DNA of 64,000 nt, from contig NZ_CP113097.1 in assembly GCF_026625125.1 (NCBI RefSeq), forward strand, positions 4,698,001-4,762,000, in the 5' to 3' direction. Below the pieces are notes generated by a model, which worked only from the letters and a program-made list of their open reading frames with translations, did not search any database and was not told the DNA's origin. Source of the stretch: Pseudomonas putida. GTDB lineage: Bacteria > Pseudomonadota > Gammaproteobacteria > Pseudomonadales > Pseudomonadaceae. Positions within the stretch are counted from its first letter, which is position 1; each line of letters opens with the position of its first letter. This document shows positions 18,574-64,000 of this stretch, in pieces. The translations under genes and the position numbers were made by a program.

Positions 18574-20247
18574 ATGACCATGCTCAAAGACCCTTCGAAG
18601 AAGTACCGCGCCTTCCCGACCATCGACCTGCCAGACCGTACCTGGCCGTCGAAGACCATCACCGAAGCGCCGATCTGGTGCAGCTCGGACCTGCGTGATG
18701 GCAACCAGTCGCTGATCGAGCCGATGGACTCGGAGAAGAAGCTGCGGTTCTGGAAGACCTTGGTGCAGGTTGGCGTGAAGGAAATCGAAGCCTCGTTCCC
18801 GTCCGCCTCGCAGACCGATTTCGACTTCGTGCGCACCTTGATCGAAGAGGGTCACATCCCGGATGACACCACCATCCAGGTGCTCACCCAGGCCCGTGAA
18901 GACCTGATCGCGCGTACTTTCGAATCGCTGCGCGGGGCCAAGAAGGCCATCGTCCACCTGTACAACGCCACCAGCCCGTCGTTCCGCCGCATCGTCTTCA
19001 ACCAGGACAAGCAAGGCGTCAAGGACATCGCGGTGAACGCGGCCAAGCTGTTCGTCAAGTACGCCGCCCAGCAGCCGGAAACACAGTGGACATTCCAGTA
19101 CTCGCCGGAAACCTTCAGCGCCACGGAGCTTGAGTTCGCCAAGGAAGTCTGCGACGCAGTCATCGAAGTGTGGAACCCGACGCCTGAGCACAAGGTCATC
19201 CTCAACCTGCCGGCCACCGTGGAAGTTGCCACGCCGAACATCTACGCCGACCAGATCGAGTGGTTCTGCCGCAACATCAGCCGCCGCGACAGCGTGATCA
19301 TCAGCCTGCACTGCCACAACGACCGTGGCACCGGCATCGCCGCCACAGAACTGGGCCTGATGGCCGGTGCCGACCGTGCCGAGGGCTGCCTGTTCGGCAA
19401 TGGCGAGCGTACCGGCAACGTCGACCTGGTGACCCTGGCGCTTAACCTCTACACCCAGGGCATCGACCCACAACTGGACTTCTCCGACATCGACGGCGTG
19501 CGCAAGGTGGTCGAAGAGTGCAACCAGCTGCCGGTTCACCCGCGGCATCCGTATGTCGGTGACCTGGTACACACTGCGTTCTCCGGCTCGCACCAGGACG
19601 CCATCCGCAAGGGCTTCGCCAAGCAGCAGGAAGGCGAGCTGTGGGAAGTGCCGTACCTGCCGATCGACCCGGCCGACATCGGCCGCAGCTACGAGGCCGT
19701 GATCCGCGTCAACAGCCAGTCGGGCAAAGGCGGCATCACCTACCTGCTCGAGCAGGAGTACGGCATCAGCCTGCCGCGCCGCATGCAGATCGAGTTCAGC
19801 CAGGTGGTTCAGGGTGAAACCGACCGCCTTGGCCTGGAAATGACCGCGCAGCAGATCTACAGCCTGCTGCACAAGGAATACCTCCAGGCCAACAGCCCGT
19901 ACGCACTGGTCAGCCACCGCCTGCAGGAAGAAAACGGCCACAGCGCAGTGGAAGTGGAAGTCGCCGGTGAAGGCGAAACTACCCTGCACTGGCGCGGCAA
20001 GGGCAATGGCGCCCTCGAAGCCCTGGTAGCCGGCCTGCCGGTTGCGGTGGAGATCATGGACTACAACGAGCACGCCATCGGTGCCGGCACCAATGCCAAG
20101 GCCGCGGCCTACATCGAACTGCGCGTGGCCGGTGGCCGCCCTGTGCACGGCGTGGGTATCGATGAGAACATCACCACGGCCAGCTTCAAGGCACTGTTCA
20201 GCGCGCTGAACCGCTCGCTGAGCCAGCAAGAGGCCAAGGCCGCGTAA
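18574..20247 (+). CDS. leuA: 2-isopropylmalate synthase
   Basis: A 557-residue enzyme condensing acetyl-CoA with 2-oxoisovalerate, the first step of leucine synthesis. The DRE-TIM domain shows [14 protein letters not shown], the metal-binding HCHNDRGTG and [13 protein letters not shown]. The C-terminal part (from about residue 430) is the leucine-binding regulatory domain ending in [13 protein letters not shown]. The length matches the long LeuA form. It is preceded by a Leu-rich leader peptide. Its last 13 codons and its terminator have a diverged second copy at 27265-27357, marking the island boundary. Confidence 0.98.
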
Positions 20248-20261
20248 CTTGCCCCCCCAAA

Positions 20262-20293
20262 AAAGCCCGCATCTGTGATGCGGGCTTTTTTTT
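20262..20293 (+). terminator. Rho-independent terminator of leuA
   Basis: Stem AAAGCCCGCATC / GATGCGGGCTTT with loop TGT, followed by a T-run of eight in total. The A-run on the other side makes it potentially bidirectional, so it could also end the convergent MFS gene. A second, slightly diverged copy occurs at 27327-27357. Confidence 0.95.
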
Positions 20294-20325
20294 ACCCTGG
20301 ATTCACCAGTTGGACTGTCAGCCAG

Positions 20326-20357: not shown

Positions 20358-21551
20358 TCAGTCAGTATGAGGACTACCCATTTTCACTTTCAACGAAGCG
20401 ACTGCCATAGGTGCGAGCCCTAACCCTACGGGCACAATACCCGCAAGTATGGCTACAGCGCTGCCAAAAGAACTGCTTATCAACCCTGCCAATGGGACAG
20501 AAAGCAGCATCGAAACTTTGAAGAGTGCACTGGTAATTCCGGTGACTCTGCCAAGCAAAGCCGCGGGTACCAGCGCCTGTCTCAATGTCCAAGCTGTAAT
20601 GATCACATAGGCCCCAAAGAAGCCCACGAAAAAGGCCGACACATAGTAAGACTCAAACGTTCCTAGTCCAAGTGGCGACACCCCTGATGCAGCCATTCCA
20701 GCACTGCATGTACACACAGCAATGCGGGTATTTAATGCACGCATCATCCTCGGTGCGACTAATCCGGAAAAAATGGAACCCAAAGCATATGAAACCAAAA
20801 GGAATGGTGTTTCGCTGATATTGAATACCCCACTGTCCGCAGCACTCAGGAGCACGAAAAAAAGATAAATAGCTGTGAAGGCATTATTGCCCACGACGAT
20901 ATAAACAACATGCACCAGCGGCTTGTTTTGCACAAGCGCCCTATAGCTGGAGATAAAGGAAGTGGGGACAACCGGGGCGATGCGAGGCGGGAGTTCGAAA
21001 GAGGAGTAGCGATACAGAAAACTTGAAAGCAAAAAACAAATGGAAGCACCATAAAATACTACCGCCGGATTTTGCAACATCAAAAAATATGAGACGGCGA
21101 CGGGCGATAGGATGAGCGCACAGTGCTCGACGATAAGTAATCGTGCATTCATGCGCGGGAGTAAATCTTTATGGAGGATACGGGGTATCAGGCAAGCACG
21201 AAGATTGCTGAGTATATATATCCCGATGGAAATCACACTTAATAGAACAAACGTCTCTAACAACGTCCATCCCCCTCGCCGAATCGCATACAACGCCACA
21301 TCACAGCATAGCCCCAGCGCGACCAAGAAACCTAAGGCTCGCGAGCGAACTCCATCCACAAGTCTCCCAGCCCAATAACCAAAGGCAACTGGACCTAAAT
21401 AAACGGTCGCTCTTAGCAGCGCTGAGAAAACTTCATCCCCCGACCCACTTAGCCTGCTTAGCGGTACGTAGATAAAAATCACCTGCGTTGCACACGCCTC
21501 GACAAAGAAAGCAAGAAGCAGACATGTTATTGCCTTTGATTGATTGTTCAT
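20358..21551 (-). CDS. MFS transporter, probable exporter of the cluster product
   Basis: A 397-residue polytopic protein with about 12 hydrophobic segments and the loop GYWAGRLVDGVRSRALG, a variant of the MFS motif A (G-x-x-x-D-R) between helices 2 and 3. A second motif-A-like stretch (IFSGLVAPRMMRAL) follows the middle loop. It is the only gene of the island on the minus strand and is divergent from pepM across a 210-base region with an operator-like dyad. Export of a toxic phosphonate and self-protection is the obvious role but is inference. The start ATG at 21551 lacks a strong ribosome-binding site. Drug:H+ antiporter is the alternative general description. Confidence 0.8.
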   Translation of the reverse strand: MNNQSKAITCLLLAFFVEACATQVIFIYVPLSRLSGSGDEVFSALLRATVYLGPVAFGYWAGRLVDGVRSRALGFLVALGLCCDVALYAIRRGGWTLLETFVLLSVISIGIYILSNLRACLIPRILHKDLLPRMNARLLIVEHCALILSPVAVSYFLMLQNPAVVFYGASICFLLSSFLYRYSSFELPPRIAPVVPTSFISSYRALVQNKPLVHVVYIVVGNNAFTAIYLFFVLLSAADSGVFNISETPFLLVSYALGSIFSGLVAPRMMRALNTRIAVCTCSAGMAASGVSPLGLGTFESYYVSAFFVGFFGAYVIITAWTLRQALVPAALLGRVTGITSALFKVSMLLSVPLAGLISSSFGSAVAILAGIVPVGLGLAPMAVASLKVKMGSPHTD

Positions 21552-21761: not shown

Positions 21762-22646
21762 ATGTCAAGAAAAAAAACTGTAGGAAGTTTCCGAAAACTA
21801 TTATTCAACGGCAGGCTCGACCTGATTCTGGAGGCCCACAATGGGCTCTCCGCTAGAATAGTCGAGGAAACGGGCTATCCAGCTATTTGGGCGTCGGGAC
21901 TCGCTATTTCCTCAGCGATGGGGCTTCGCGATTGCAATGAGGCATCATGGAGTCAGGTCATGGAGGTTGCTCAATGCATAGCTGACGCAGTAAATATCCC
22001 TGTTCTTTTCGACGGAGATTCAGGCTTCGGTAATTTCAATAATGTAAGGCACATAGTTAAGCGCCTGTCGCACTATGGGATAGCTGGAGTTTCTTTAGAA
22101 GACAAACAGTTTCCTAAAATGAACTCGTTCGTCAGCCATGAGCACGCACTTAGTAGCGTGGATGAATTTTGCGGAAAGATTAAAGCTGCGCAGGATTCGA
22201 AACGGGACGATGACTTTATCGTTATTGCTCGTACAGAAGCATTGGTAGCCGGAATGAGTGTCCAGGCGGCTTTGAAACGAGCGGAGCAGTACTACGAAGC
22301 AGGTGCCGATGGAATTTTTATACACTCCAAAGAGACAGACGGATTCGACGTATTGGAATTCAGTAAGTGCTGGGCAGGACGCTGCCCTTTGATAGTCGCC
22401 CCAACAACCTACAAAAACGTGTCGACGGAGCTACTACAGGAAGTTGGGGTCTCGGTGTATATATGTGCAAACCAAATGATGCGGGCCTCATTGCTTGCAA
22501 TGCGAAATGCAGCAGCACAAATTCAGGCAGACAATAGCATCTGCAACATCGACAATAACATCTGTTCGCTCTCCGAAGTATTTCAACTTCTGAACTACGA
22601 CGAACTGAAGGATGCGGAGCTGATTTATGCTCGACAAGAAAGCTAG
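21762..22646 (+). CDS. pepM: Phosphoenolpyruvate mutase (phosphonate C-P bond formation)
   Basis: A 294-residue member of the isocitrate lyase/PEP mutase superfamily. It carries the diagnostic PEP mutase signature EDKQFPKMNS at residues 113-122 (EDK-x5-NS), which separates it from methylisocitrate lyases. EAHNGLSARIVEE (24-36), IWASGLAISSAMGLRD (42-57) and FDGDSGFGNFNN (83-94) match PEP mutases over the whole barrel. It isomerises PEP to phosphonopyruvate, the entry step of nearly all phosphonate natural products. I chose the ATG at 21762 (GGAG six bases upstream) over 21627, whose extra 45 residues have no family counterpart. The equilibrium favours PEP, so the condensing enzyme at 25560-26711 should drive the reaction. 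Confidence 0.96.
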   Translation: MSRKKTVGSFRKLLFNGRLDLILEAHNGLSARIVEETGYPAIWASGLAISSAMGLRDCNEASWSQVMEVAQCIADAVNIPVLFDGDSGFGNFNNVRHIVKRLSHYGIAGVSLEDKQFPKMNSFVSHEHALSSVDEFCGKIKAAQDSKRDDDFIVIARTEALVAGMSVQAALKRAEQYYEAGADGIFIHSKETDGFDVLEFSKCWAGRCPLIVAPTTYKNVSTELLQEVGVSVYICANQMMRASLLAMRNAAAQIQADNSICNIDNNICSLSEVFQLLNYDELKDAELIYARQES

Positions 22647-23187
22647 CATGCAGGCTGCCTGCCACATGCTCAAAACAATCATGCTTGAATGTAAAAAAGT
22701 AAAGCTTAGCAACGGCGAGACACTCTTGGAGCACTCGCTTTGGAGTGCTCACCAGGCATTGACTGAGGGCTGTGCGGAAGAACTGATTGTCGCAGCGTTA
22801 TTCCACGACATTGGCCATTTCCTATGCAACAGTGACCCGGAAATGACTCCATATGAAAAGGACTGCCAGCATGCTGATCTGGGTGCCCAATGGCTAAACC
22901 GATGGTTCCCTCAGTCAGTCTGCATCCCCATTCAACTCCATATCGATGCAAAGCGATACTTAATCACCGTTAATGAAAACTACAACGATCAACTGAGTTC
23001 GGGATCACTGTCAAGCTTACTTAACCAGGGGGGACGTATGACAAGCGAAGAAATCTTGGCATTTCAAAACCAGCCATACCACCATGACGCGCTATCCATC
23101 CGAAAATTTGATGACACGCCGTATGACAATGGATTCGTGAATGCGTATTCAAGGTATGAAAAAATCATCATGGCCGTAATGAGGTGA
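22627..23187 (+). CDS. PhnZ-like HD-domain (mixed-valence diiron oxygenase family) protein
   Basis: A 186-residue HD-fold protein overlapping pepM by 20 bases (GGAG seven bases before the ATG). Putative metal ligands are H36, H60-D61 (FHDIGH), H82, H105 and D162 (RKFDD), almost the spacing I recall for PhnZ (H34, H58, D59, H80, H104, D161). PhnZ and TmpB are non-heme diiron oxygenases that oxidatively cleave C-P bonds of hydroxyphosphonates, and the closest catabolic relatives work on phosphonates. The PhnZ Tyr-x-x-Glu lid pair near residues 24-27 is not evident here. Inside a biosynthetic operon it may tailor or oxidise an intermediate, or remove a dead-end product. A nucleotide phosphohydrolase is the less likely alternative. 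Confidence 0.8.
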   Translation: MLDKKASMQAACHMLKTIMLECKKVKLSNGETLLEHSLWSAHQALTEGCAEELIVAALFHDIGHFLCNSDPEMTPYEKDCQHADLGAQWLNRWFPQSVCIPIQLHIDAKRYLITVNENYNDQLSSGSLSSLLNQGGRMTSEEILAFQNQPYHHDALSIRKFDDTPYDNGFVNAYSRYEKIIMAVMR

Positions 23188-23190
23188 TGA

Positions 23191-24506
<1,316 letters not shown>

Positions 24507-24524
24507 CATTAAAAACAACAGACC

Positions 24525-24558
24525 AGGTGGCATAGGATAATTTTCACACTAGCCACCT
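24525..24558. repeat. Hairpin in the only gap of the biosynthetic operon
   Basis: The 172-base gap between hppE and psf3 contains arms AGGTGGC (24525-24531) and GCCACCT (24552-24558), then a small CTAG-AAAA-CTAG hairpin (24560-24571), then GGCAT/ATGCC around 24596-24610. No U-tail follows any of them. They could partly end transcription after hppE or process the mRNA, leaving a separate promoter for the second half. No clear promoter could be assigned. Confidence 0.35.
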
Positions 24559-24678
24559 TCTAGAAAACTAGTCACTGACGCAAGCTCAACCGGCAGGCAT
24601 CAAGCATGCCGTGCTGCACTCCTTTATCTACTTGAAATTGCAGGTATGCATGCCTTGTGAATTATAGAGGATCAAACC

Positions 24679-25563
24679 ATGACTATCACCGTCGGATTAA
24701 TTGGCCTAGGTCAAATGGGTCATGCCATATGCCATCGACTTCTAGACACTGGCGTCGAGGTATTAATCCACAACCGCACGTACGAAAAAGCTGAAAAACT
24801 GATACACCGAGGCGCACTTTGGAAAAACAACTTGAGAGAGCTCGCAGCTAACGCAAACATTATTCTTGTATGTGTTAGCGGAGAAAGTGCACTACGGGCA
24901 ATCTATTACTCAGATACTGACGGACTGCTTTATTCGCTCCAGGAAGGAAAAATCGTAATTGACTTCAGCACCTTATCAGCGGAGTCTGCGGTCAACCTAC
25001 ATGAAGCGTTCGGAAATATCGGTGTGAGTTATATCGAATGCCCGATCTCTGGGGGAGTAATGGGCGCTCTCCAGGGAAAATTATGCTCTATAGTCTCAGG
25101 TAATGAACAAGCCTACTCATCGGCACATCCCATACTCATAAAAATCTGCAAAACAATCAACTACGTTAAACAACCTGGAAAGGCACAGCAACTTAAAATC
25201 CTCAACAATCTGGCAGAGTCTATCAATCTAGCAGGGGCCCTGGAAGTTATTCATCAAGGGCAGGCGTTGGGCTTGGATCTCGAATCAATGGTGAAGGTAT
25301 TCACTTCCTGCCGCGGTCGTTCTGCCTACATGCATGTATCGCTGAACTATATTCTCTCAGGGTTGACAACTAGTCATGTGACGCTGGCCGTCCGCTGTAA
25401 AGATTTGGAATTGGCGCAATCTCAATTACCAGACCTTAAGGCTTATCCAGCAACAGCGATGGCGATCCAATGCTTCATCGACGCCAGACACGCCTTTGGC
25501 GACGACGTTGACCAATGCCAATACTTTTCACTACTCGCTCAACGACGGAGTGTTACATCATGA
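24679..25563 (+). CDS. psf3: Beta-hydroxyacid dehydrogenase family reductase, Psf3-like (2-oxopropylphosphonate reductase)
   Basis: A 294-residue NAD(P)-dependent enzyme of the 3-hydroxyisobutyrate/6-phosphogluconate dehydrogenase family. The N-terminal Rossmann motif is GLIGLGQMG (6-14), the substrate-binding loop is CPISGGVMGA (121-130) and the catalytic Lys173 lies in QLKILNN with N176/N177. In P. syringae, Psf3 of this family reduces 2-oxopropylphosphonate stereospecifically to (S)-2-hydroxypropylphosphonate, the HppE substrate. An AGAGGA element precedes the ATG. It follows the 172-base gap and overlaps the condensing enzyme by four bases (ATGA). The assignment to phosphonate chemistry rests on context. 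Confidence 0.85.
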   Translation: MTITVGLIGLGQMGHAICHRLLDTGVEVLIHNRTYEKAEKLIHRGALWKNNLRELAANANIILVCVSGESALRAIYYSDTDGLLYSLQEGKIVIDFSTLSAESAVNLHEAFGNIGVSYIECPISGGVMGALQGKLCSIVSGNEQAYSSAHPILIKICKTINYVKQPGKAQQLKILNNLAESINLAGALEVIHQGQALGLDLESMVKVFTSCRGRSAYMHVSLNYILSGLTTSHVTLAVRCKDLELAQSQLPDLKAYPATAMAIQCFIDARHAFGDDVDQCQYFSLLAQRRSVTS

Positions 25564-26711
25564 ATCTACGCCAAGATATTATCGTCGAAGACACGACATT
25601 ACGAGATGGCGAGCAAGCACCTGGCATTTCGTTTGGAAGAGCAACTAAACTAAAGATATTCGATGCCCTTATCGACGCGGGCATACGCTGGATTGAAGGC
25701 GGCATATATGCGATGGGCGGCACTGAGAGTCGAACATTAAGTGAGATGCTAGAGCGCACACAGGGAACTGATATTCGACTGGTAGGCTGGAATAGAGGGA
25801 TACGTGCAGACGTAGAAGCATCACTCGACGCAGGCTACCGATACATACATATCGGGTTACCCACCTCAGAGGTCCACCTGAAGCACAGCATAAACAAATC
25901 AAAGGACTGGCTTGTCAGACAGGCATGCGAATTAATAGACTGTGCAAAGCAACGCGATGTATTTGTCTCCATCAGCGCTGAAGATGTTGCCCGCTCAGAC
26001 TTGTCATTTGTCGTTGATTATGCCGGCCACATCTGCGAAGCGGGAGCCGATAGGTTACGGCTCTCTGACACGATTGGAGTGCTTACGCCTGAACAGTACC
26101 ACTCCATCATCCGTACAGTGGTATCCGCAGTGGAGATTGATACCCAGTGCCATGCTCATAACGACTTCGGCCTCGGTGTAAGCAATACATTATCCGGTTT
26201 GCAGGCAGGCGCAAAATATTTTCATGCCACTGTAAACGGTATTGGTGAACGAGGGGGAATGCCTGACCTGGCGCAAATGGTAATGTCCCTAAAAATTCAA
26301 TACGGGATTGACCTTGGTGTTAAGCCGGAAAAGCTTCAAACACTCTCTGAGATTGTCGCCAATGCAACTGGCTCTCAAATCAATCCTTGGCAGCCCATCG
26401 TGGGCAGCAATATTTTTTCTCACGAGTCAGGTATTCACACAAAAGGCACTCTCAACAACGGCAAGTCATTCGAGCCTTACGACCCAAGCGTGATGGGGCG
26501 CGAACGTCACATTATCGTCGGTAAACATTCTGGACGCGCCTCAATAAAATACGCATTGGACCAATTGCAAATCACATGCTCAGATGATGAAGTCCAGCAA
26601 TTGCTGCAATTGGTAAGAGAGGTATCCATGATTAAATCAAGTGCCATAAGCCTTACCGATGTGGCCATGCTTTGCTCCACTATAAAGAAAGGAAGGCAAC
26701 ATGGAGTTTAA
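25560..26711 (+). CDS. psf2: 2-phosphonomethylmalate synthase, Psf2/FrbC-like DRE-TIM condensing enzyme
   Basis: A 383-residue member of the homocitrate/isopropylmalate synthase family: EDTTLRDGEQAPG (10-22, catalytic Arg15 and metal Asp16), CHAHNDFGLG (197-206, metal His pair), NGIGERGGMPDL and the C-terminal GKHSGR. It should condense acetyl-CoA with phosphonopyruvate to 2-phosphonomethylmalate, pulling the unfavourable PepM equilibrium. It lacks the long regulatory domain of LeuA (383 against 557 residues) and is far more like homocitrate synthase (NifV/FrbC) than the neighbouring leuA, so it is not a local duplicate. The ATG at 25560 (overlapping the psf3 stop) is preferred over 25515. 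It overlaps the last cupin gene by 11 bases. Confidence 0.88.
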   Translation: MNLRQDIIVEDTTLRDGEQAPGISFGRATKLKIFDALIDAGIRWIEGGIYAMGGTESRTLSEMLERTQGTDIRLVGWNRGIRADVEASLDAGYRYIHIGLPTSEVHLKHSINKSKDWLVRQACELIDCAKQRDVFVSISAEDVARSDLSFVVDYAGHICEAGADRLRLSDTIGVLTPEQYHSIIRTVVSAVEIDTQCHAHNDFGLGVSNTLSGLQAGAKYFHATVNGIGERGGMPDLAQMVMSLKIQYGIDLGVKPEKLQTLSEIVANATGSQINPWQPIVGSNIFSHESGIHTKGTLNNGKSFEPYDPSVMGRERHIIVGKHSGRASIKYALDQLQITCSDDEVQQLLQLVREVSMIKSSAISLTDVAMLCSTIKKGRQHGV

Positions 26712-27261
26712 CATCACAGCAAGACTCGATGACCTTCAGAAATTAATACAAAAACGAAAAATGACTTTAGATAATATTCGAGGCCTCTATGATAGAACCA
26801 TCGACGGCATTACAATTAACTCTACGCAGCTTAAAAAAATTGCCCAATATCTTAACGTCACAGCAGCCTATGTGATTGACGAATTAGGCGGCGAGTACGA
26901 TAAATCTCAAAGCTGCGTTTTCGGCGGACTCATCCGATTCGATCGCCTACGGCACGTGCAGGGTGAGCCTGCCTATTTTTACCGCCACTTACTCAAGACA
27001 ACTTCAGATAAAAATCTGCTGGTACTCAGGACTACCCCTCTATTCCCATCGGCCGAGAAGGCAATACTAAACGCCGGACATAAGGCTAGAGAATTCGTAT
27101 ACATTCTCTCTGGGACAGTAGGGGTTAAATGGGGAAGTCATCCACATCTTCACAACGAGGTACTAAATGAGGGAGATTCCATTTTCATTGAAGAATGGAC
27201 TCCTCATTGTTTCTATAAACTTGAACCGGATTCACAAATTCTCGCGATTGACTACCTTTAA
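26701..27261 (+). CDS. Second HppE-like non-heme iron cupin (function unassigned)
   Basis: A 186-residue protein with the same architecture as HppE: an HTH-like helical domain with K20 in RKMTLDN, then a cupin. The iron triad is intact: H127 and E131 (GHKAREFVYILSG) and H169 (WTPHCFY). The block VGVKWG and GDSIFIEEWTPH are closer to the Streptomyces HppE sequence as I recall it than the first cupin is. The Tyr102 equivalent is Ala91; Tyr103 and Tyr105 equivalents (Y92, Y94) are kept. It could be a second epoxidase, an oxygenase acting on a phosphonate intermediate (HepD/MpnS relatives share the cupin), or a regulator. It is the last gene of the operon, overlapping psf2 by 11 bases. Confidence 0.8.
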   Translation: MEFNITARLDDLQKLIQKRKMTLDNIRGLYDRTIDGITINSTQLKKIAQYLNVTAAYVIDELGGEYDKSQSCVFGGLIRFDRLRHVQGEPAYFYRHLLKTTSDKNLLVLRTTPLFPSAEKAILNAGHKAREFVYILSGTVGVKWGSHPHLHNEVLNEGDSIFIEEWTPHCFYKLEPDSQILAIDYL

Positions 27262-27264
27262 CTA

Positions 27265-27306
27265 CTGTCACAGTCGCTGAGCCGGGAGAAAGCCAAATCG
27301 ACTTAA
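27265..27306 (+). pseudogene. Remnant of a diverged leuA 3' end
   Basis: Fourteen codons reading L-S-Q-S-L-S-R-E-K-A-K-S-T-stop align without gaps to the true leuA end [17 protein letters not shown] (20206-20247). The last island gene stops only three bases before it. With the terminator copy behind it, this shows that a leuA tail from a related but different genome was left at the right junction. It has no start codon and no function as protein. Confidence 0.8.
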
Positions 27307-27326
27307 GCGGTGCCGCGATGAACGAG

Positions 27327-27357
27327 AAAGTCCGTATCTTTGATGCGGGCTTTTTTT
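27327..27357 (+). terminator. Second copy of the leuA terminator, ending the phosphonate operon
   Basis: AAAGTCCGTATC pairs with GATGCGGGCTTT across a TTT loop, followed by T residues. Compared with the leuA terminator, two C-to-T changes convert G-C pairs to G-U pairs, so the stem is kept. The 16 bases GATGCGGGCTTTTTTT are identical in both copies. It now terminates the biosynthetic operon. Confidence 0.88.
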
Positions 27358-27365
27358 AACCTATA

Positions 27366-27463
27366 CCGGCCTTTCGCGGGTCAACCCGCTCCCATAGAGA
27401 CTTCACAGAATTCGAAAGCTGTGCAATGCCTGTGAAAGCGAGGTTACCCGCAAAAGGGTCGGC
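27366..27463. repeat. REP-like pair (CGCGGGT variant)
   Basis: Inverted units CGCGGGTCAACCCGCTCCCA (27375-27394) and AGGTTACCCGCAAAAGGGTC (27442-27461), a variant of the Pseudomonas REP family with GCGGGTnnACCCGC cores. They lie between the island terminator and the eda terminator. Confidence 0.6.
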
Positions 27464-51581: not shown

Positions 51582-52994
51582 CCCTGAATACAGCGCATAA
51601 GCGGCCAGGGCCGCGCCAATCAGCACCGCGGCAAAGATCACCTTCTCCCACGTGGTGAACAGCACCTGGCCTTGCTCACGCTTGGCCCGGGCGAACAGGA
51701 TCACCCCTGGCGCGTACAGCAATGCCGAGAGCAGCAGGTACTTGAGCCCACCGGCATACAGCAGCCACACCGCATAAACCAGCGCCACCAACGCCACCAA
51801 CAGGTCCTTGCGGCGCAGCGCCTCCTGCCCGGCATAACTGTCCCCGCGCAGCGCCAACAGCACCGCATAGGCAGCCGACCATAAGTACGGCACCAGGATC
51901 ATCGACGACGCCAGGTAGATCAGGCTGGTGTAGGTACCCGCCGAAACCAGGGTGATCAGCAAGAACCCCTGGATCATGCAGTTGGTCAGCCACAGGGCAT
52001 TGGCCGGCACATGGTTGGCATTTTCCTTGGCCAAAAAGCGCGGCATGGTCTTGTCCCGGGCCGTGGCGAAGAGGATTTCTGCGCACAGCAGCGCCCAGGA
52101 GAGCAAGGCGCCGAGCAGCGAAACTGCCAGGCCGATGCTGATCAGCAACGCGCCCCATGGCCCGACGATGTGCTCAAGCACCGAGGCCAGTGAGGGGTTC
52201 TGCAAGCCGGCCAGTTCCGGCTGGGTCATCACCCCCAGCGACAGCACGTTGACCAGCACCAGCAGCGCCAGTACCCCGAGAAAACCGATCACCGTGGCCT
52301 TGCCCACATCCGTCCGGCGCAGCGCCCGCCCCGAATAGACGCTGGCGCCTTCGATGCCGATGAACACGAATACGGTGACCAGCATCATGTTGCGCACCTG
52401 GTCCAGCACATTGCCGAACTGCGGGTTGCTCACGCCCCAGATATCCCGAGTGAAGATGTCGGCGCGGAAGGCGAAGGCGGCAATGACGATGAAGATCAGC
52501 AGCGGCACCACCTTGGCCACGGTGGTCACCTGGTTGATGAACGCCGCCTCCTTGATGCCACGCAGCACCAGAAAGTGCACCGACCACAGCAGCAACGAGG
52601 CACAGCCGATGGCAATGGGCGTATTGCCCTCACCGAACACCGGAAAATAGAAGCCAAGGGTACTGAACAGCAGCACGAAGTACCCCACGTTGCCCAGCCA
52701 GGCGCTGATCCAGTACCCCCACGCTGACGAAAAGCCCATGTAATCGCCAAACCCTGCCTTGGCATAGGCATACACCCCTGAATCCAGCTCAGGCTTGCGG
52801 TTGGCCAAGGTCTGGAACACGAAGGCCAGCGCCAGCATGCCCACCGCCGTGATACCCCAACCAATCAGCACGGCACCGACATCCGCGCGCGCGGCCATGT
52901 TCTGTGGCAACGAGAATATACCGCCGCCGATCATCGAACCGACCACCAGTGCTATCAACGCGCCTAAGCGCAGTTTCTGTCCTGGTTCGCCCAT
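51567..52994 (-). CDS. Arginine/ornithine antiporter (ArcD-type), second copy
   Basis: A 475-residue APA-superfamily permease, about 13 hydrophobic segments, beginning [24 protein letters not shown]. It is strongly similar along its whole length to the arcD product at 53431-54858 (same length, nearly identical motif order such as [14 protein letters not shown] and [14 protein letters not shown]). It is divergent from that gene. It probably arose by duplication; substrate may have drifted (arginine/ornithine or another basic amino acid pair). Confidence 0.9.
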   Translation of the reverse strand: MGEPGQKLRLGALIALVVGSMIGGGIFSLPQNMAARADVGAVLIGWGITAVGMLALAFVFQTLANRKPELDSGVYAYAKAGFGDYMGFSSAWGYWISAWLGNVGYFVLLFSTLGFYFPVFGEGNTPIAIGCASLLLWSVHFLVLRGIKEAAFINQVTTVAKVVPLLIFIVIAAFAFRADIFTRDIWGVSNPQFGNVLDQVRNMMLVTVFVFIGIEGASVYSGRALRRTDVGKATVIGFLGVLALLVLVNVLSLGVMTQPELAGLQNPSLASVLEHIVGPWGALLISIGLAVSLLGALLSWALLCAEILFATARDKTMPRFLAKENANHVPANALWLTNCMIQGFLLITLVSAGTYTSLIYLASSMILVPYLWSAAYAVLLALRGDSYAGQEALRRKDLLVALVALVYAVWLLYAGGLKYLLLSALLYAPGVILFARAKREQGQVLFTTWEKVIFAAVLIGAALAAYALYSGLLSL

Positions 52995-53430
52995 GCGATT
53001 CCCCGTCTGTCGTTCGTGTTGTCATACCGCTGAAACAGCTTTATCAGTATATGAATAAGGCTGCTTATAATAGACAAAGCCATTAAAGCTATAGCACTCA
53101 TAACTCTTTTGTCTATACCAGCTATCCCAGATAAACGCTTGTCCGACGTGCAACTTTAATCCCTCGATCACCCCTGGGATTTGTTGAGAAAAGTTTGCGA
53201 AAACTGCAAAAGCGACTAGCGTCAGAGTTCGCAGGCTGAACACGGCGTTTGTTTTGGTTGTGCATGGAGGTGCCAGGGTACAGGGCCTGCAACAGGGCTG
53301 TCGGCACGCTCCAGGAGTCAAGTGAAGGAAATTTCCTACTTCACAACGCCATGAACTGATCCATGTCAGATCATGGCCACGGCGACGGATTTATTCTGTC
53401 GTCAACGTTCTCCTGGTATGGAGTTGTTAA
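52995..53430. other. 436-base divergent region between the two arcD genes
   Basis: No convincing gene. Right of the minus-strand start it holds an A+T-rich stretch (53041-53120) with an inverted repeat TAGACAAA (53071-53078) / TTTGTCTA (53108-53115) and a TATAAT hexamer (53065-53072 area). Further right is a candidate Anr box and -10 region for arcD. A 99-residue minus-strand open frame (53022-53321) lacks a ribosome-binding site and family features. Confidence 0.6.
53356..53369 (+). promoter_or_regulatory. Anr/FNR box candidate for the arcDABC operon
   Basis: CTGAT-N4-GTCAG departs from TTGAT-N4-ATCAA in three positions but is centred at 53362.5, exactly 41.5 bases before the start expected from a TATTCT -10 at 53392-53397. 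This is the class II geometry used by Anr. The arc operon is oxygen-controlled by Anr in pseudomonads. Confidence 0.5.
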
Positions 53431-54858
53431 ATGTCTGATTCTTCCGGAAAATTAAAACTTGGCGCACTCGTTGCCCTCGTCGTCGGTTCGATGATTGGTG
53501 GCGGTATATTCTCGTTGCCACAAAACATGGCCGCGAGCGCAGGCGTCGGCGCCGTACTGATCGGCTGGGCAATCACCGCAGTGGGCATGCTGACCCTGGC
53601 CTTCGTGTTCCAGACCCTGGCCAATCGCAAGCCTGATCTGGACGGCGGGGTATACGCCTACGCCAAGGCCGGCTTCGGTGACTACATGGGTTTCTCCTCG
53701 GCCTGGGGCTACTGGATCAGTGCCTGGCTGGGCAACGTCGGTTACTTCGTGCTGCTGTTCAGCACCCTAGGCTACTTCTTCCCCATCTTCGGCGAAGGCA
53801 ACACCCCGGCCGCCATCATCGGCGCATCGGTGCTGCTGTGGGCAGTGCACTTCCTGGTCCTGCGCGGCATCAAGGAAGCGGCGTTCATCAACCTGGTCAC
53901 CACCGTTGCCAAGGTGGTACCACTGGTGCTGTTCGCGCTGATCTGCCTGTTCGCCTTCCGGCTCGACATCTTCACCGCTGACATCTGGGCCACCGGTACG
54001 CCGGAACTGGGCAGCGTGATGAACCAGGTGCGCAACATGATGCTGGTCACCGTCTGGGTGTTCATCGGCATCGAGGGGGCGAGCATTTTCTCCTCGCGAG
54101 CGGAAAAACGCGCCGACGTCGGCAAGGCCACGGTCATCGGCTTCATCACCGTGTTGCTGTTCCTGGTGCTGGTCAACGTGTTGTCGCTGGGTGTGATGAC
54201 TCAACCGGAACTGGCCAAACTGCAAAACCCGTCGATGGCGGCCGTGCTGGAGCACGTGGTTGGCCATTGGGGCGCGGTGCTGATCAGCGTCGGCCTGATC
54301 ATCTCGCTGCTCGGCGCACTGCTGTCGTGGGTGCTCCTGTGCGCCGAGATCATGTTCGCCGCAGCCAAAGACCACACCATGCCGGAGTTCCTGCGCCGCG
54401 AAAATGCCAACCAGGTGCCGGCCAACGCCCTGTGGCTGACCAATGCCATGGTGCAGATCTTCCTGGTGATCACACTGTTCTCCGCCAGCACCTACCTGTC
54501 ACTGATCTACCTCGCCACCTCGATGATTCTGGTGCCCTACCTGTGGTCGGCAGCCTATGGCTTCTTGCTGGCCATGCGCGGTGAAACCTACGAGCAGGCC
54601 GCCAGCGAACGCAATAAAGACCTGCTCATCGGCGCCATCGCACTGATCTACGCCATCTGGCTGTTGTATGCAGGCGGCATGAAGTACCTGCTGCTCTCGG
54701 CCTTGCTGTATGCCCCTGGGGTCATCCTGTTCGCCAAGGCCAAGCGTGAAATTGGCCAACCGATCTTCACCAACGTGGAAAAACTGATCTTCGCGGCTGT
54801 GGTCACCGGCGCCCTGGTGGCGGCCTATGGCCTGTATGACGGCTTCCTGACCCTGTGA
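53431..54858 (+). CDS. arcD: Arginine/ornithine antiporter
   Basis: A 475-residue APA-family antiporter with about 13 membrane segments (start [24 protein letters not shown]). It exchanges external arginine for ornithine and feeds the arginine deiminase pathway. It is the first gene of arcDABC, 32 bases before arcA, and is paralogous to the divergent gene at 51567-52994. Confidence 0.96.
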
Positions 54859-54890
54859 CCCACGTCATCGCTCAATTGGAGGAAAGAACC

Positions 54891-56144
54891 ATGTCCGCTG
54901 AAAAACAGAAGTACGGTGTGCACTCCGAAGCCGGCAAACTGCGCAAGGTAATGGTGTGCGCCCCAGGGCTTGCGCACAAGCGCCTGACCCCGAGCAACTG
55001 CGACGAACTGCTGTTCGATGATGTGATCTGGGTCGACCAGGCCAAACGCGACCATTTCGACTTCGTCACCAAGATGCGCGAGCGCGGCGTGGATGTGTTG
55101 GAGATGCACAACCTGCTGACCGATATCGTGCAGAACAAAGACGCGCTGAAGTGGATCCTTGACCGCAAGATCACCCCTGACACCGTAGGTGTGGGGCTGA
55201 CCAACGAAGTGCGCAGCTGGCTCGAAGGCCTGGAGCCGCGCCACCTCGCCGAGTTCCTGATCGGCGGTGTGGCCGGCCAGGACCTGCCGCAGAGCGAGGG
55301 CGCCGACGTGGTCAAGATGTACAACGACTACCTGGGCCACTCCAGCTTCATTCTGCCACCGTTGCCGAACACCCAGTTCACCCGCGACACCACCTGCTGG
55401 ATCTACGGCGGGGTTACGCTGAACCCGATGTACTGGCCGGCACGACGCCAAGAAACGCTGCTGACGACCGCCATCTACAAATTCCACCCGCAGTTCACCG
55501 GTGCCGACTTCCAGGTCTGGTACGGCGACCCGGACAAAGAACACGGCAACGCCACCCTTGAAGGCGGTGACGTGATGCCGATCGGCAAAGGCATCGTGCT
55601 GATCGGCATGGGCGAGCGCACTTCACGCCAGGCCATAGGGCAACTGGCGCAGAACCTGTTCGCCAAGGGCGCAGTGGAGAAGGTCATCGTTGCCGGCCTG
55701 CCGAAATCGCGCGCGGCGATGCACCTGGACACCGTCTTCAGCTTCTGCGACCGCGACCTGGTGACAATCTTCCCCGAGGTGGTGAAAGAAATCGTGCCGT
55801 TCATCATCCGGCCGGACGAAAGCAAGCCCTACGGCATGGACGTGCGCCGCGAGAACAAGTCGTTCATCGAAGTGGTGGGCGAGCAACTGGGGGTCAAGCT
55901 GCGCGTGGTCGAGACCGGCGGCAACAGCTTCGCCGCCGAGCGCGAACAGTGGGATGACGGCAACAACGTGGTGGCGATGGAGCCTGGCGTGGTCATCGGC
56001 TACGACCGCAACACCTACACCAACACCCTGCTGCGCAAGGCTGGCATCGAGGTCATCACCATCAGTGCCGGCGAGCTTGGCCGGGGCCGTGGCGGCGGCC
56101 ACTGCATGACCTGCCCGATCGTGCGTGACCCCATCGATTACTAA
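54891..56144 (+). CDS. arcA: Arginine deiminase
   Basis: A 417-residue guanidino-group hydrolase converting arginine to citrulline and ammonia. Catalytic Cys lies in [11 protein letters not shown] at the C terminus; [23 protein letters not shown] holds the catalytic Asp/Glu region and [12 protein letters not shown] the conserved N-terminal block. The ATG at 54891 has GGAGGAAAG upstream. Second gene of arcDABC. Confidence 0.98.
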
Positions 56145-58846: not shown

Positions 58847-60355
<1,509 letters not shown>

Positions 60356-60507
60356 AGGGTTCGCCACCCGCCCCTGTATTTTCGGCGTAAATTCCGAGTG
60401 TTTATCAGGTTTTTCCTACCCGCATAACGCAGGCACTGCACCTACACTCGCTCCCCTCAGGCGCACCAAGGACTGTTCGCCGCTAAACAGAGCAGAGAGT
60501 ACCTTGC

Positions 60508-61713
60508 ATGCTTGCACTCGATTTCTACGGCACACTGGCGGCCGCTTCGCTGGTGCTCCTACTGGGGCGCGTCCTGGTAAAACGCGTCGGTTTTCTGCGC
60601 ACTTACAATATTCCCGAACCGGTAGCCGGCGGTTTGCTGGTTGCCCTGCTGCTTCTGGGCCTGCGCGCCATGGACATCCAAGTGCAGTTCGATACGTCCT
60701 TGCAAACGCCCTTGATGCTGGCATTTTTTTCCACCATCGGTTTGAGTGCCGACATCGCCAGCCTGAAAAAAGGCGGGCGAATTGTCGGTGTCTTTCTGAT
60801 GGCGGTCACCGGGCTGCTGGTGGTGCAGAATGCCCTGGGCATTGGCCTGGCCAAGGCGCTGGGGCTCGACCCGCTGATGGGTTTGCTGTCCGGTTCGATT
60901 TCCCTGTCGGGCGGCCACGGCACGGGCGCTGCCTGGGGCGCCACCTTCAGCGAGAAATACGGCCTGGTTTCCGCCACCGAGCTGGCACTGGCCGCTGCCA
61001 CGTTTGGCCTGGTGCTGGGTGGGCTGATTGGCGGGCCTGTCGCCCGCCTGCTCATCAGCCGTGTGCAGACACCGGAGTTGGAACAGGAAATACCCCGTGC
61101 ACCCAAGGGTTTCGAGCAACCGAACCAAGAACGCTTGATCACGCCATTTTCAATGATCGAAACCCTTACGCTGATCGCCGTCAGCTTGATGGCGGGCACC
61201 CTGTTGAACAAGCAGCTGCATGAGACCGCATTCGAATTACCGACATTCGTATGTGTCTTGTTCGTCGGTGTCATGCTGCGCAATGGGCTTTCAGCATTCG
61301 GCCGCTATCAGGTCTTCGAGCGCGAAGTATCGGTACTGGGCAATGTCAGCTTGTCGCTGTTCCTGGCGATCGCGCTGATGTCGCTGAAACTCTGGGATCT
61401 GGCGGCACTGGCTTTGCCATTCTTCGCGCTGCTGGCAGCGCAGACCTTGCTCATGGCGCTTTTTGCCATATCCGTGACATTCCGGATCATGGGCAGCAAC
61501 TACGATGCAGCCGTACTGGCGGCAGGACATTGCGGTTTCGGGCTGGGCGCAACGCCAACGGCCATTGCCAACATGCAAGCGGTCACGCAACGCTTCGGGC
61601 CTTCGCAAATTGCCTTCCTGGTGGTGCCGATGGTCGGGGCGTTCTTTATCGACATCATCAATGTGGTGGTGATCAAGCTGTACCTGGCGCTGCCGTTTTT
61701 TGGCGCAAGCTGA
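60508..61713 (+). CDS. gltS: Sodium/glutamate symporter
   Basis: A 401-residue ESS-family transporter with about 10-12 hydrophobic segments and the duplicated Gly-rich re-entrant motifs GSISLSGGHGTGAAWG and AGHCGFGLGATPTAIANM. It imports glutamate with Na+. It starts 152 bases after the TyrR-like gene. No convincing sigma-54 promoter was found in the gap. Confidence 0.95.
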   Translation: MLALDFYGTLAAASLVLLLGRVLVKRVGFLRTYNIPEPVAGGLLVALLLLGLRAMDIQVQFDTSLQTPLMLAFFSTIGLSADIASLKKGGRIVGVFLMAVTGLLVVQNALGIGLAKALGLDPLMGLLSGSISLSGGHGTGAAWGATFSEKYGLVSATELALAAATFGLVLGGLIGGPVARLLISRVQTPELEQEIPRAPKGFEQPNQERLITPFSMIETLTLIAVSLMAGTLLNKQLHETAFELPTFVCVLFVGVMLRNGLSAFGRYQVFEREVSVLGNVSLSLFLAIALMSLKLWDLAALALPFFALLAAQTLLMALFAISVTFRIMGSNYDAAVLAAGHCGFGLGATPTAIANMQAVTQRFGPSQIAFLVVPMVGAFFIDIINVVVIKLYLALPFFGAS

Positions 61714-61803
61714 TAACGCTAGGTCACGATGCTTACGTCGAAAGTAGAAATACTATGAGTCGGAATCTCCCGGCCTGAGGCGACCGGGAATTCCTTGCTG
61801 CAA

Positions 61804-62070
61804 TTATGAATGTTTGAAGCCCGGCAAACCTTGCTCAGCTCGCCACCTCTTCACTTCATCGACCACACTTTGAGGGGAATCTTTAATGCCTACTTTTGAA
61901 GGGTAAAAAATCAGATCAGAACCCAATGGGTGCTCAGACAGCCGCTCAAATTTCATCATACCGTCTGTGTGTTTTCGATCCGTGGGGTAAAGAACCGGAT
62001 CTCCATGGTAGATCCCATAAACAAGCCGGAAAAATGCTTCTTCCGTGTAATCAGATATTGTCTCTTTCAT
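61804..62070 (-). CDS. Colicin/pyocin DNase immunity protein
   Basis: An 88-residue acidic protein of the Im2/Im9 family: ISDYTEEAFFRLV at the N terminus, LSEHPLGSDLIFYPS in the helix II-III region that binds the nuclease, and WRAEQGLPGFKHS at the C terminus. It binds and neutralises the DNase encoded upstream. Its start overlaps the toxin stop by four bases, giving coupled translation. Confidence 0.95.
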   Translation of the reverse strand: MKETISDYTEEAFFRLVYGIYHGDPVLYPTDRKHTDGMMKFERLSEHPLGSDLIFYPSKVGIKDSPQSVVDEVKRWRAEQGLPGFKHS

Positions 62071-63992
62071 AGCTCTTTTTTCTCCACATGTGCTTCAATG
62101 TGAAACTTTGGCGACAGGATAGTCATGTTCTCCACATCATAAACCGCGCCCCCATCAACAATTCGCTTTATGTGATGGATCTCAAATTTCCACCGTTGCC
62201 CTACCCGCTCATTTTTCCGTACAGGAGGTGCCAAACCACGACGCATAATCAAGAGTTCACCTAAATCAAACTGCCCCTCAAACAACGGGCTGCGCCCAAT
62301 CAGCTGCCATAGCCGCCTGCGAAATGCACCGAAACTGCTGAATTTCTTCCCTCGCAGTTTACTGGCTATCTGAGCAGGAATCGGAGCCCCCTCTCGATTC
62401 CCTTCATACAGAAATTGACCCTGTATCAGCCGCCCTTTACCTGTCACCACCCCTGGCATGTTCCGGGGGCTTTTGAACATCACATAGAGCGGCGGCAACC
62501 CGGAGTCGGCCGGGAAGATGATGACATAGTCATCGAACCCAATATCTGGCAGGTCAGGATAGATGTCGAGCCGGCCTTCAAGCGGCTCCAGCATCGGCCC
62601 AACCAGCGCCGTTATGGGAGGCGGTAGGGCCGGCAAGGCTGTGGAACTGTCAGTCGGCTCGACTGCAGGCGTCCAAACCAGCGTTCTGGGTGGCACGTCA
62701 TCAGTGGTGACGATGTACTGACCGTTTTGCGCGTCGTACTGCGCCGCCAGGACCGGTACGGCGCAAGAGATGACGGCGCCATCAGTACGGGCGGCGAACA
62801 GTTCGGTTGGCCCGATCTGCTCGCGCTTGTCGCCCATCCGTATCGGCAGGTCGACCGCACCTCGCTCGATGGCCGCAGCCTGAGCAGCAGCATCGAGTTC
62901 GACCGTGAGGTCAGTCAGCGGCGCGCTCAGAACGTAGTTGTGTTGCAACTCCCCATTGCCCAGCTTGGGGGAATACAGCAACGCAAAAGTCCCCACCAGG
63001 AACGGCCCCACCACCGCTTCGATCGATGCAGCGCCCAGCGATGCAACTGCAGCGCGTATCGCTGTGCCCAGCGTCAAACCGGCGTCAAGCACTGGCGCGG
63101 CGCCTCGGGCCATGACGACCGCCGGATTTACCGCAAGCCCAGTGAGCAGGACTTCGTAAGTGTTGGCCTCACGAATGGCCTTCTCTGCCAACGTCCGCTC
63201 GACCGCTGCCTTGGCAGCGACCTCACGCGCTCTGGCTTGTGCTTCAGCAATGGCGCGTACCCGCGCCAAAGCCTCTTCATGGTCTCTCTTCAGCGCCTCT
63301 TCATGGGCTCGGGCCATCGCTTCGGTATGGGCCTGTCGCTGAGCTTCGGCTTGCACTTCAGCGTTCGCAACAGCCTGTTCTAACGTCGCGATCTGAGCGT
63401 GAAGTATTTGAATTTCTGCTTCACGTAGCTGAACGGTATAGGCCGCCTTGTACGCGTTTTTCAATGCTTGTTTCAGCGCTGGGGGCCCTAAGCGCGACTG
63501 TTGGATAAGTCGATGCGTCGCCATTGCGTAGTCGACGGGGCTTTTGCCGAAAGGACTGGAACCGAAATAACTGTTGGCTGCGACGCGTTGCGCATTTAAG
63601 TCATTGACCTTCCTTTCAATAAGCACGTGACGTGCGGCAATGTCACCTCTCAGCGCATCAATAGGGGATGAAGGGTGCCCTCCCAACGTCTGGCGAATCG
63701 TCCGTGCATCGGAATCGATGTGCTGAGCGGCCACGGACAAATTTACCAGGTATTCATTTCTGGCATCACCATCGGCGCCCTTCATTGCATAAGGCGCTTT
63801 GTGATAGAACTCAATTTTCTGCCGCCCATCCTTACTGCGTACATCCAGCCCTCTGAACCAATCTTCTTGGTGACCCTTAACGAACGGCGGCAATGGCCCT
63901 GAGTGCCCAGGCGGTATTACAGAACCGCCCACCGGAGGCTTTCCCCCTATAAACGTATAATCCAACTCAATTTGCCTGCGCTTTCTCGACAT
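62067..63992 (-). CDS. S-type pyocin/colicin-like HNH DNase bacteriocin
   Basis: A 641-residue toxin. After a Pro/Gly-rich N terminus there is a long Ala/Glu/Arg coiled coil (about residues 200-275), a pyocin S translocation-type region, and a C-terminal HNH nuclease (GVVTGKGRLIQGQF, then SFGAFRRRLW). The metal-dependent motif is visible: H606-H607, N622, H631 and H635, as in colicins E2/E7/E9. It degrades the DNA of related bacteria. The ATG at 63992 has AAGGA just upstream, so the gene is probably complete, with promoter and any P-box beyond the window. It is followed by the immunity gene. Confidence 0.93.
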   Translation of the reverse strand: MSRKRRQIELDYTFIGGKPPVGGSVIPPGHSGPLPPFVKGHQEDWFRGLDVRSKDGRQKIEFYHKAPYAMKGADGDARNEYLVNLSVAAQHIDSDARTIRQTLGGHPSSPIDALRGDIAARHVLIERKVNDLNAQRVAANSYFGSSPFGKSPVDYAMATHRLIQQSRLGPPALKQALKNAYKAAYTVQLREAEIQILHAQIATLEQAVANAEVQAEAQRQAHTEAMARAHEEALKRDHEEALARVRAIAEAQARAREVAAKAAVERTLAEKAIREANTYEVLLTGLAVNPAVVMARGAAPVLDAGLTLGTAIRAAVASLGAASIEAVVGPFLVGTFALLYSPKLGNGELQHNYVLSAPLTDLTVELDAAAQAAAIERGAVDLPIRMGDKREQIGPTELFAARTDGAVISCAVPVLAAQYDAQNGQYIVTTDDVPPRTLVWTPAVEPTDSSTALPALPPPITALVGPMLEPLEGRLDIYPDLPDIGFDDYVIIFPADSGLPPLYVMFKSPRNMPGVVTGKGRLIQGQFLYEGNREGAPIPAQIASKLRGKKFSSFGAFRRRLWQLIGRSPLFEGQFDLGELLIMRRGLAPPVRKNERVGQRWKFEIHHIKRIVDGGAVYDVENMTILSPKFHIEAHVEKKEL

Positions 63993-64000
63993 GCATCCTT

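Follow-up and report, generated by a model that had tools for sequence, protein, structure and literature searches.

Among the described systems closest to the locus reported here, the psf cluster of Pseudomonas syringae PB-5123 carries a fosC gene, according to the available part of PMC12037509, and the accessible text of a study of P. fluorescens Ps833 (eLife 2021; PMC8719888) describes a fosfomycin-like cluster with homologues of Psf1-Psf4. A 2026 preprint, in its available portion (PMC12871164), lists a fosfomycin family 'in pseudomonads', and is our source for the chemistry by which 2-phosphonomethylmalate (2-Pmm) is formed and for the reaction of PsfC, which converts 2-Pmm to 3-oxo-4-phosphonobutanoate. 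The same portion outlines the flavophos (bsf) clusters of Burkholderia, which contain PepM, PsfC and, as the product of their last gene, a 2-Pmm synthase, and which branch off at 3-oxo-4-phosphonobutanoate via a beta-keto acid cleavage enzyme. Here we describe a seven-gene operon in a 64,000-nucleotide stretch of P. putida DNA (assembly GCF_026625125.1, contig NZ_CP113097.1, positions 4,698,001 to 4,762,000; hereafter the window), taken from a genome of 5.86 Mb in a single contig. The operon occupies 21762-27261 on the forward strand and encodes, in order, PepM, an HD-domain oxygenase, PsfC, HppE1, Psf3, Psf2 and HppE2 (Table 1). We regard the locus, with a probability of about three in four, as a horizontally acquired psf-type fosfomycin pathway, served by an exporter of the major facilitator superfamily (MFS) and by protection independent of a kinase. 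The cluster joins a known family of fosfomycin clusters, and places a complete pathway of this type in a P. putida-like species. New here are the absence of a kinase gene pair found in two related clusters, a separate clade of second HppE proteins, the low-GC cluster flanked by leuA sequence, and the decay of a sister copy in strain HAI-2.

The operon is compact, with successive intergenic gaps of -20, 3, -4, 172, -4 and -11 nt, and each of its seven genes is open up to its own stop, as are all eight when the divergent MFS gene is included. All five biosynthetic enzymes of a psf-type fosfomycin pathway (PepM, Psf2, PsfC, Psf3 and Psf4/HppE) are represented, and the best matches of the operon enzymes lie far beyond chance. 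PepM scores 329.8 bits against the NCBIfam equivalog for phosphoenolpyruvate (PEP) mutase, above the cut-off of 319.55, and its catalytic motif reads EDK-QFPKM-NS at residue 113. The sole PDB match to PsfC at an E-value of 0.001 is the crystallised PsfC, with which, among other relatives (13 in all), it aligns end to end; D7, H9, H11, E45, H46, H136, H137, D187 and H189 are invariant in 14/14 rows, the crystallised protein included, and some of these nine positions presumably bind the iron atoms. The best PDB match to the dehydrogenase, 5u5g, is titled '6-phosphogluconate dehydrogenase', and we take it to be Psf3 of P. syringae, which presumably reduces 2-oxopropylphosphonate to 2-hydroxypropylphosphonate; on this identification, the dehydrogenase of a psf-type pathway is in place. 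The identification agrees with the available text of PMC8719888, where the Psf3 homologue is named as a 6-phosphogluconate dehydrogenase. Psf2 belongs to the homocitrate/isopropylmalate synthase family, and is assigned by that family and by its neighbourhood with pepM, its substrate being predicted; it shares 68% identity with its counterpart in the related genome G245, and 56% with the protein that occupies the equivalent position in a cluster of Burkholderia stagnalis. HppE1 finds as its best PDB match 5u55, the (S)-2-hydroxypropylphosphonate (2-HPP) epoxidase Psf4 (a substrate taken from PDB titles), and shares 63% identity with P0021, the epoxidase of P. syringae.

An earlier note, made by a model from the letters of this DNA, had proposed a one-strand operon of these enzymes in a P. 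putida-like host, following the P. syringae route, with an EDK-x5-NS motif in PepM and an HppE triad of H127/E131/H170. These proposals stand: the gaps together with the family and PDB matches bear out the operon and the psf route, the motif is present, the triad is exact in HppE1, and the host is of the same species as P. putida strain HAI-2 (genome G215). The note had also named a phylogeny outside the Psf/HppE clades as counting against it; in the tree that was built, that of HppE, HppE1 falls within the clade of P. syringae Psf4.

While the comparisons above establish the gene and family assignments, the reaction chemistry is carried over from characterised relatives, and would run as follows. 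PepM would convert PEP to phosphonopyruvate, which Psf2 would condense with acetyl-CoA to give 2-Pmm. PsfC would turn this into 3-oxo-4-phosphonobutanoate, which would lose CO2 to yield 2-oxopropylphosphonate; Psf3 would reduce the latter to (S)-2-HPP, on which HppE1 would close the epoxide to form fosfomycin, for export by the MFS protein. At the level of sequence, a pathway to fosfomycin is well supported, with fosfomycin itself or a close derivative as the probable product.

The two HppE-family proteins of this operon fall into different clades. When 40 HppE-like proteins were placed in a tree, from which the fragments P0044 and P0050 were excluded and in which P0047 was trimmed to 192 residues, HppE1 came to lie inside a 15-member clade with P. 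syringae Psf4, and HppE2 in another clade, of five members, to which P0048 is the nearest row; the deeper branching is unsure owing to long branches, that of the Streptomyces wedmorensis HppE above all. The iron ligands and Arg97, Tyr103, Tyr105 and Asn135 are kept in 15/15 rows of the Psf4 clade, HppE1 among them. Members of the HppE2 clade keep the iron triad (H127/E131/H169 in HppE2 itself), Asn135, Tyr103 and Tyr105 in 5/5 rows, and Lys20 in 4/5. The position of S. wedmorensis Arg97, a residue which we take to touch the substrate phosphonate, is Val in all five, compared with Arg in 15/15 Psf4-clade rows and 20/21 others, and Lys in P0048; position 106 is Arg in the five HppE2 members and in P0048. 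Judged as an HppE/Psf4 epoxidase, HppE2 therefore has the triad and the fold and lacks the Arg97, and the combination of Val at this position with Arg106 throughout the clade suggests another substrate. An AlphaFold model of HppE2 (13 alignment rows, mean pLDDT 86, pTM 0.56) retrieved only Psf4 or HppE structures at ranks 1-23 of a Foldseek search of the PDB, the first, a Psf4 structure, with a modest TM-score of 0.56 and a root-mean-square deviation of 12.6; the two domains of the model may be misplaced relative to each other. We take HppE2 for an oxidase of the HppE family whose substrate has changed.

The HD protein finds its best PDB match in TmpB, followed by PhnZ, enzymes which, according to the available text of PMC10574752, cleave the C-P bonds of 1-hydroxyphosphonates. 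In alignment it keeps the His/Asp positions shared by these two mixed-valent diiron oxygenases; it differs from them in that its gene lies within a biosynthetic operon, and in that it scores under the cut-offs of the named catabolic families (141 bits against TIGR03276, where 214.6 is required). It looks like a lineage of its own, since it is 50-53% identical to its cluster counterparts in the related genomes G390 and G245, and 35-39% identical to other PhnZ-like genes in nine searched genomes, its own included. One of the latter lies outside the window, on the same contig (339565-339972), and is 36% identical to the cluster protein. The HD and HppE2 genes are common to all three clusters of this gene order (the window, G390 and G245). 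Most likely, they supply a conserved accessory step, either of tailoring or of clearing off-pathway phosphonates. More tentatively, the two may be a conserved iron-oxygenase pair of this subgroup of psf clusters that takes the pathway further than fosfomycin, or along a parallel branch, to an undescribed phosphonate, HppE2 then acting on a substrate other than 2-HPP. The locus also draws attention to two conserved iron oxygenases that lack an assigned step in a pathway serving as a model for unusual iron chemistry.

The clusters of G390 (L013) and G245 (L014) are the closest relatives of the locus, with the order PepM-HD-PsfC-HppE1-...-Psf3-Psf2-HppE2 and an accompanying MFS gene. The claims of the earlier note that the window cluster is reordered, and that extra oxidases set it apart, do not hold against these two, which show the same order and carry both oxidase genes. 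Its view of the cluster as undescribed survives in part, as pseudomonad clusters are on record (P. fluorescens Ps833 in PMC8719888, and the family in PMC12871164, as far as the available texts go), and no report from the P. putida group was found in the open-licence listings searched; the available parts of PMC13302981, PMC12288639 and PMC6804068 contain nothing on a psf cluster. The extent that it gave, 21762-27261, coincides with the seven-gene operon, while leaving the divergent MFS gene outside and the PhnZ-like HD gene unnamed. The cluster of a third genome, G208 (L015), has a gene list similar to that in the accessible text on Ps833, plus PsfC; it differs from the window in its order, its identities of 31-57%, an FAA hydrolase gene and the lack of an HD or HppE2 gene from the cluster. 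With P. syringae PB-5123 the window shares relatives of PsfC, Psf3 and Psf4 (by PDB match), a PepM and a 2-Pmm-synthase-type enzyme. Beside their MFS genes, G390 and G245 further carry a DUF6065 gene and one that falls in no known family (as scanned in L013; the L014 counterparts are 72% and 56% identical). The psf2 of G390 is split by an apparent frameshift (L013 13233-14364), which is either real or an assembly error.

A further difference from G390 and G245 concerns self-protection. Both carry, between HppE1 and Psf3, a FosC-like kinase of the amino-acid-kinase family and a thymidylate-kinase-like gene, in whose place the window has a 172-bp gap where tblastn found no significant kinase remnant (best E-value in the window 0.25). 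The window genome gave no FosC match, a FosC-like kinase being a protection gene and not a biosynthetic step, and differs in this also from PB-5123 with its fosC (PMC12037509, available part). It gave two FosA/Fos_GSH matches, none above the NF000496 cut-off (best 43.8 against 180 bits), and 51 matches to the GlpT family, again none above the cut-off (best 244 against 407.75 bits). MurU is present at 343 bits (cut-off 250), and P. putida mutants in N-acetylmuramic acid (MurNAc) recycling are more susceptible to fosfomycin, according to the available text of PMC5371407. Protection is probably afforded by the intrinsic fosfomycin tolerance of the host, through MurNAc recycling via MurU and the lack of an over-cut-off GlpT-family importer, and not by a dedicated kinase, which such tolerance may render dispensable. 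Clusters with and without the FosC-like kinase offer a natural comparison in this regard, as do the intact and decayed copies in one species. Incidentally, residues 85-265 of the 266-residue kinase (L013 10916-11716) are those covered by the NCBIfam FosC model (182 positions), so that an N-terminal part may be missing from the FosC sequence on which the model is based.

The cluster looks to lie on an acquired stretch of DNA. Its eight genes have a GC content of 43-49%, and of 0.42-0.54 at third codon positions, compared with 63% and 0.76-0.85 in the adjoining leuA, eda and zwf. The 3' end of leuA and its terminator are duplicated around the cluster, as a native copy on the left and a diverged copy on the right. 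The right-hand copy aligns locally to leuA with a score of 33, where 200 shuffles reached at most 15, and when it was used to search for a donor among 19 leuA loci (of the window and congeners), none surpassed the window's own leuA end, which is its best match. A clean empty site between leuA and eda was looked for in four P. putida-like relatives that share the flanking genes (L056-L059) and not found, as the interval there is filled by 3.4-6.1 kb of other, partly shared DNA without psf genes; this points to a variable insertion spot. Strain HAI-2 (L011 7168-10760) has lost hppE1, psf3, psf2, hppE2 and the last part of psfC through a deletion corresponding to approximately 23878-27462 of the window. 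A premature stop codon cuts its HD gene short; its MFS gene and pepM are still open.

Several points weigh against our interpretation as a fosfomycin pathway protected without a kinase. The pathway is predicted here from its genes; neither HppE2 nor the HD oxygenase belongs to the five-enzyme route, and the end product may therefore be a different one; the window lacks the FosC-like kinase that its two closest complete relatives carry; and the cluster of the same-species strain HAI-2 is broken, with four of seven genes lost. The FosC-like kinase within the G390 and G245 clusters, in itself a pointer to fosfomycin, is not a sure FosC: this family gives it its highest scores, 277 and 211 bits, under a cut-off of 350. 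The G390 protein also scores 120.6 as an isopentenyl phosphate kinase, just above the cut-off of 120, and the best PDB match of the kinase is an isopentenyl phosphate kinase (1.9e-20), with FomA lower at 6.4e-13. As the gene sits inside the cluster, a fosfomycin kinase is the likelier reading. A FosC-family search of five genomes found matches in G390 and G245 and none in the window genome, HAI-2 or G208.

These points bear on three other explanations of the locus. Fosfomycin or 2-HPP may be an intermediate on the way to some other final phosphonate, made from it by HppE2, by the HD oxygenase or by both, and fosfomycin kinases would then not be needed here. The presence of both genes in 3/3 clusters of this order, the retention by HppE2 of its iron triad alongside the invariant Val and Arg106, and the want of a FosC match or an over-cut-off FosA match in the genome are all consistent with this proposal; yet G390 and G245 combine the same two genes with a FosC-like kinase, as expected if fosfomycin itself is made, and we hold the intermediate role possible but doubtful. 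That the cluster is complete in sequence and silent or functionally decaying, yielding no product under natural conditions, would accord with the lesions in HAI-2 and with the missing kinase genes of the window. This seems improbable given that 8/8 window genes are open, that the catalytic motifs of PepM, PsfC, HppE1 and HppE2 are intact, and that the protein clusters of HppE1, HppE2 and PsfC hold 17, 19 and 21 member sequences, which are not necessarily from different strains. Finally, PepM, PsfC and a 2-Pmm synthase are shared with the Burkholderia flavophos clusters (PMC12871164, available part), which the B. stagnalis cluster resembles in gene content, and a flavophos-like compound could in principle arise through the 3-oxo-4-phosphonobutanoate branch. 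It is very unlikely to do so here: the operon has no beta-keto acid cleavage gene, of which B. stagnalis has one (the search for it covered the operon and not the rest of the genome), and has Psf3 and Psf4 matches instead, neither Psf3 nor HppE being matched in the B. stagnalis locus.

Clusters of this kind are rare in the collections searched. PsfC was found in 5/398 Pseudomonas genomes (those of the window, HAI-2, G390, G245 and G208), and HppE1 matched seven genomes of the same set, clearly in four (the window genome, G245, G390 and G208) and weakly in three (E-values 4e-5 to 6e-4), with none in HAI-2. A class-wide sample returned PsfC in 1/369 genomes, namely the window genome, and a PsfC pattern scan of the GTDB r220 collection, which requires exact peptide words and may omit records near the window genome, returned a single locus, that of HAI-2. 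A scan of viral sequences with the PsfC alignment found none. Plasmid searches yielded one distant PsfC (Burkholderia, 38%) and no HppE1; with the whole locus as query they returned 31 records, all matching over short pieces, PEP mutase genes among them. A protein search listed 14 PsfC-like proteins, including those of P. guariconensis, Vibrio mediterranei and unclassified Pseudomonas.

Table 1. Features of the psf-type locus and its flanks, in window coordinates.
Feature	Position	Strand	Evidence
Native leuA 3' end and terminator, left flank copy	20215..20296	.	Sequence comparison
MFS transporter, probable exporter	20358..21551	-	PF07690; divergent from operon; 44% identical homologues beside G390 and G245 clusters
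PepM (Psf1), PEP mutase, 294 aa, ATG start	21762..22646	+	TIGR02320 above cut-off; EDK-x5-NS; 71-72% to G390/G245
HD-domain oxygenase, PhnZ/TmpB kind	22627..23187	+	PDB best TmpB 5e-21, then PhnZ; 50-53% in G390/G245
PsfC, PHP-fold iron enzyme	23191..23940	+	PDB 7rty PsfC 3.5e-89, 56% identity to it
HppE1 (Psf4), (S)-2-HPP epoxidase	23937..24506	+	5u55 2.1e-75; 63% to P0021; Psf4 clade, support 100/96
172-bp gap, place of FosC-like and thymidylate-kinase-like genes in G390/G245	24507..24678	.	tblastn: no significant remnant
Psf3, NAD(P)-dependent dehydrogenase	24679..25563	+	PDB 5u5g 1e-97
Psf2, 2-Pmm synthase (predicted)	25560..26711	+	PF00682 and PF22617; start taken as ATG overlapping psf3 stop
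HppE2, second divergent HppE-family cupin oxidase	26701..27261	+	Psf4 6e-19; own clade, support 100/99; V at R97 position 5/5
Diverged second leuA 3' end and terminator, right flank	27274..27361	.	Local score 33 against shuffle maximum 15

Promoter and terminator scans of the locus performed no better than shuffles, and a phage-family scan of three proteins gave a single hit, in which the MFS protein matched a family without a known function. The PsfC of P. guariconensis (P0008) comprises 225 residues with an unrelated tail, and no HppE of that species appears in the HppE1 listing; it may represent another decayed cluster. HppE-like proteins of Vibrio diabolicus, Xenorhabdus, Pectobacterium and Photorhabdus (P0033-P0035, P0037, P0039) are 51-54% identical to HppE1, and as the PsfC search named none from these organisms, the epoxide is perhaps reached there by another route. 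Within the window, two further stretches of lower GC content (55-58%) lie at 52000-55000 and 60000-64000.

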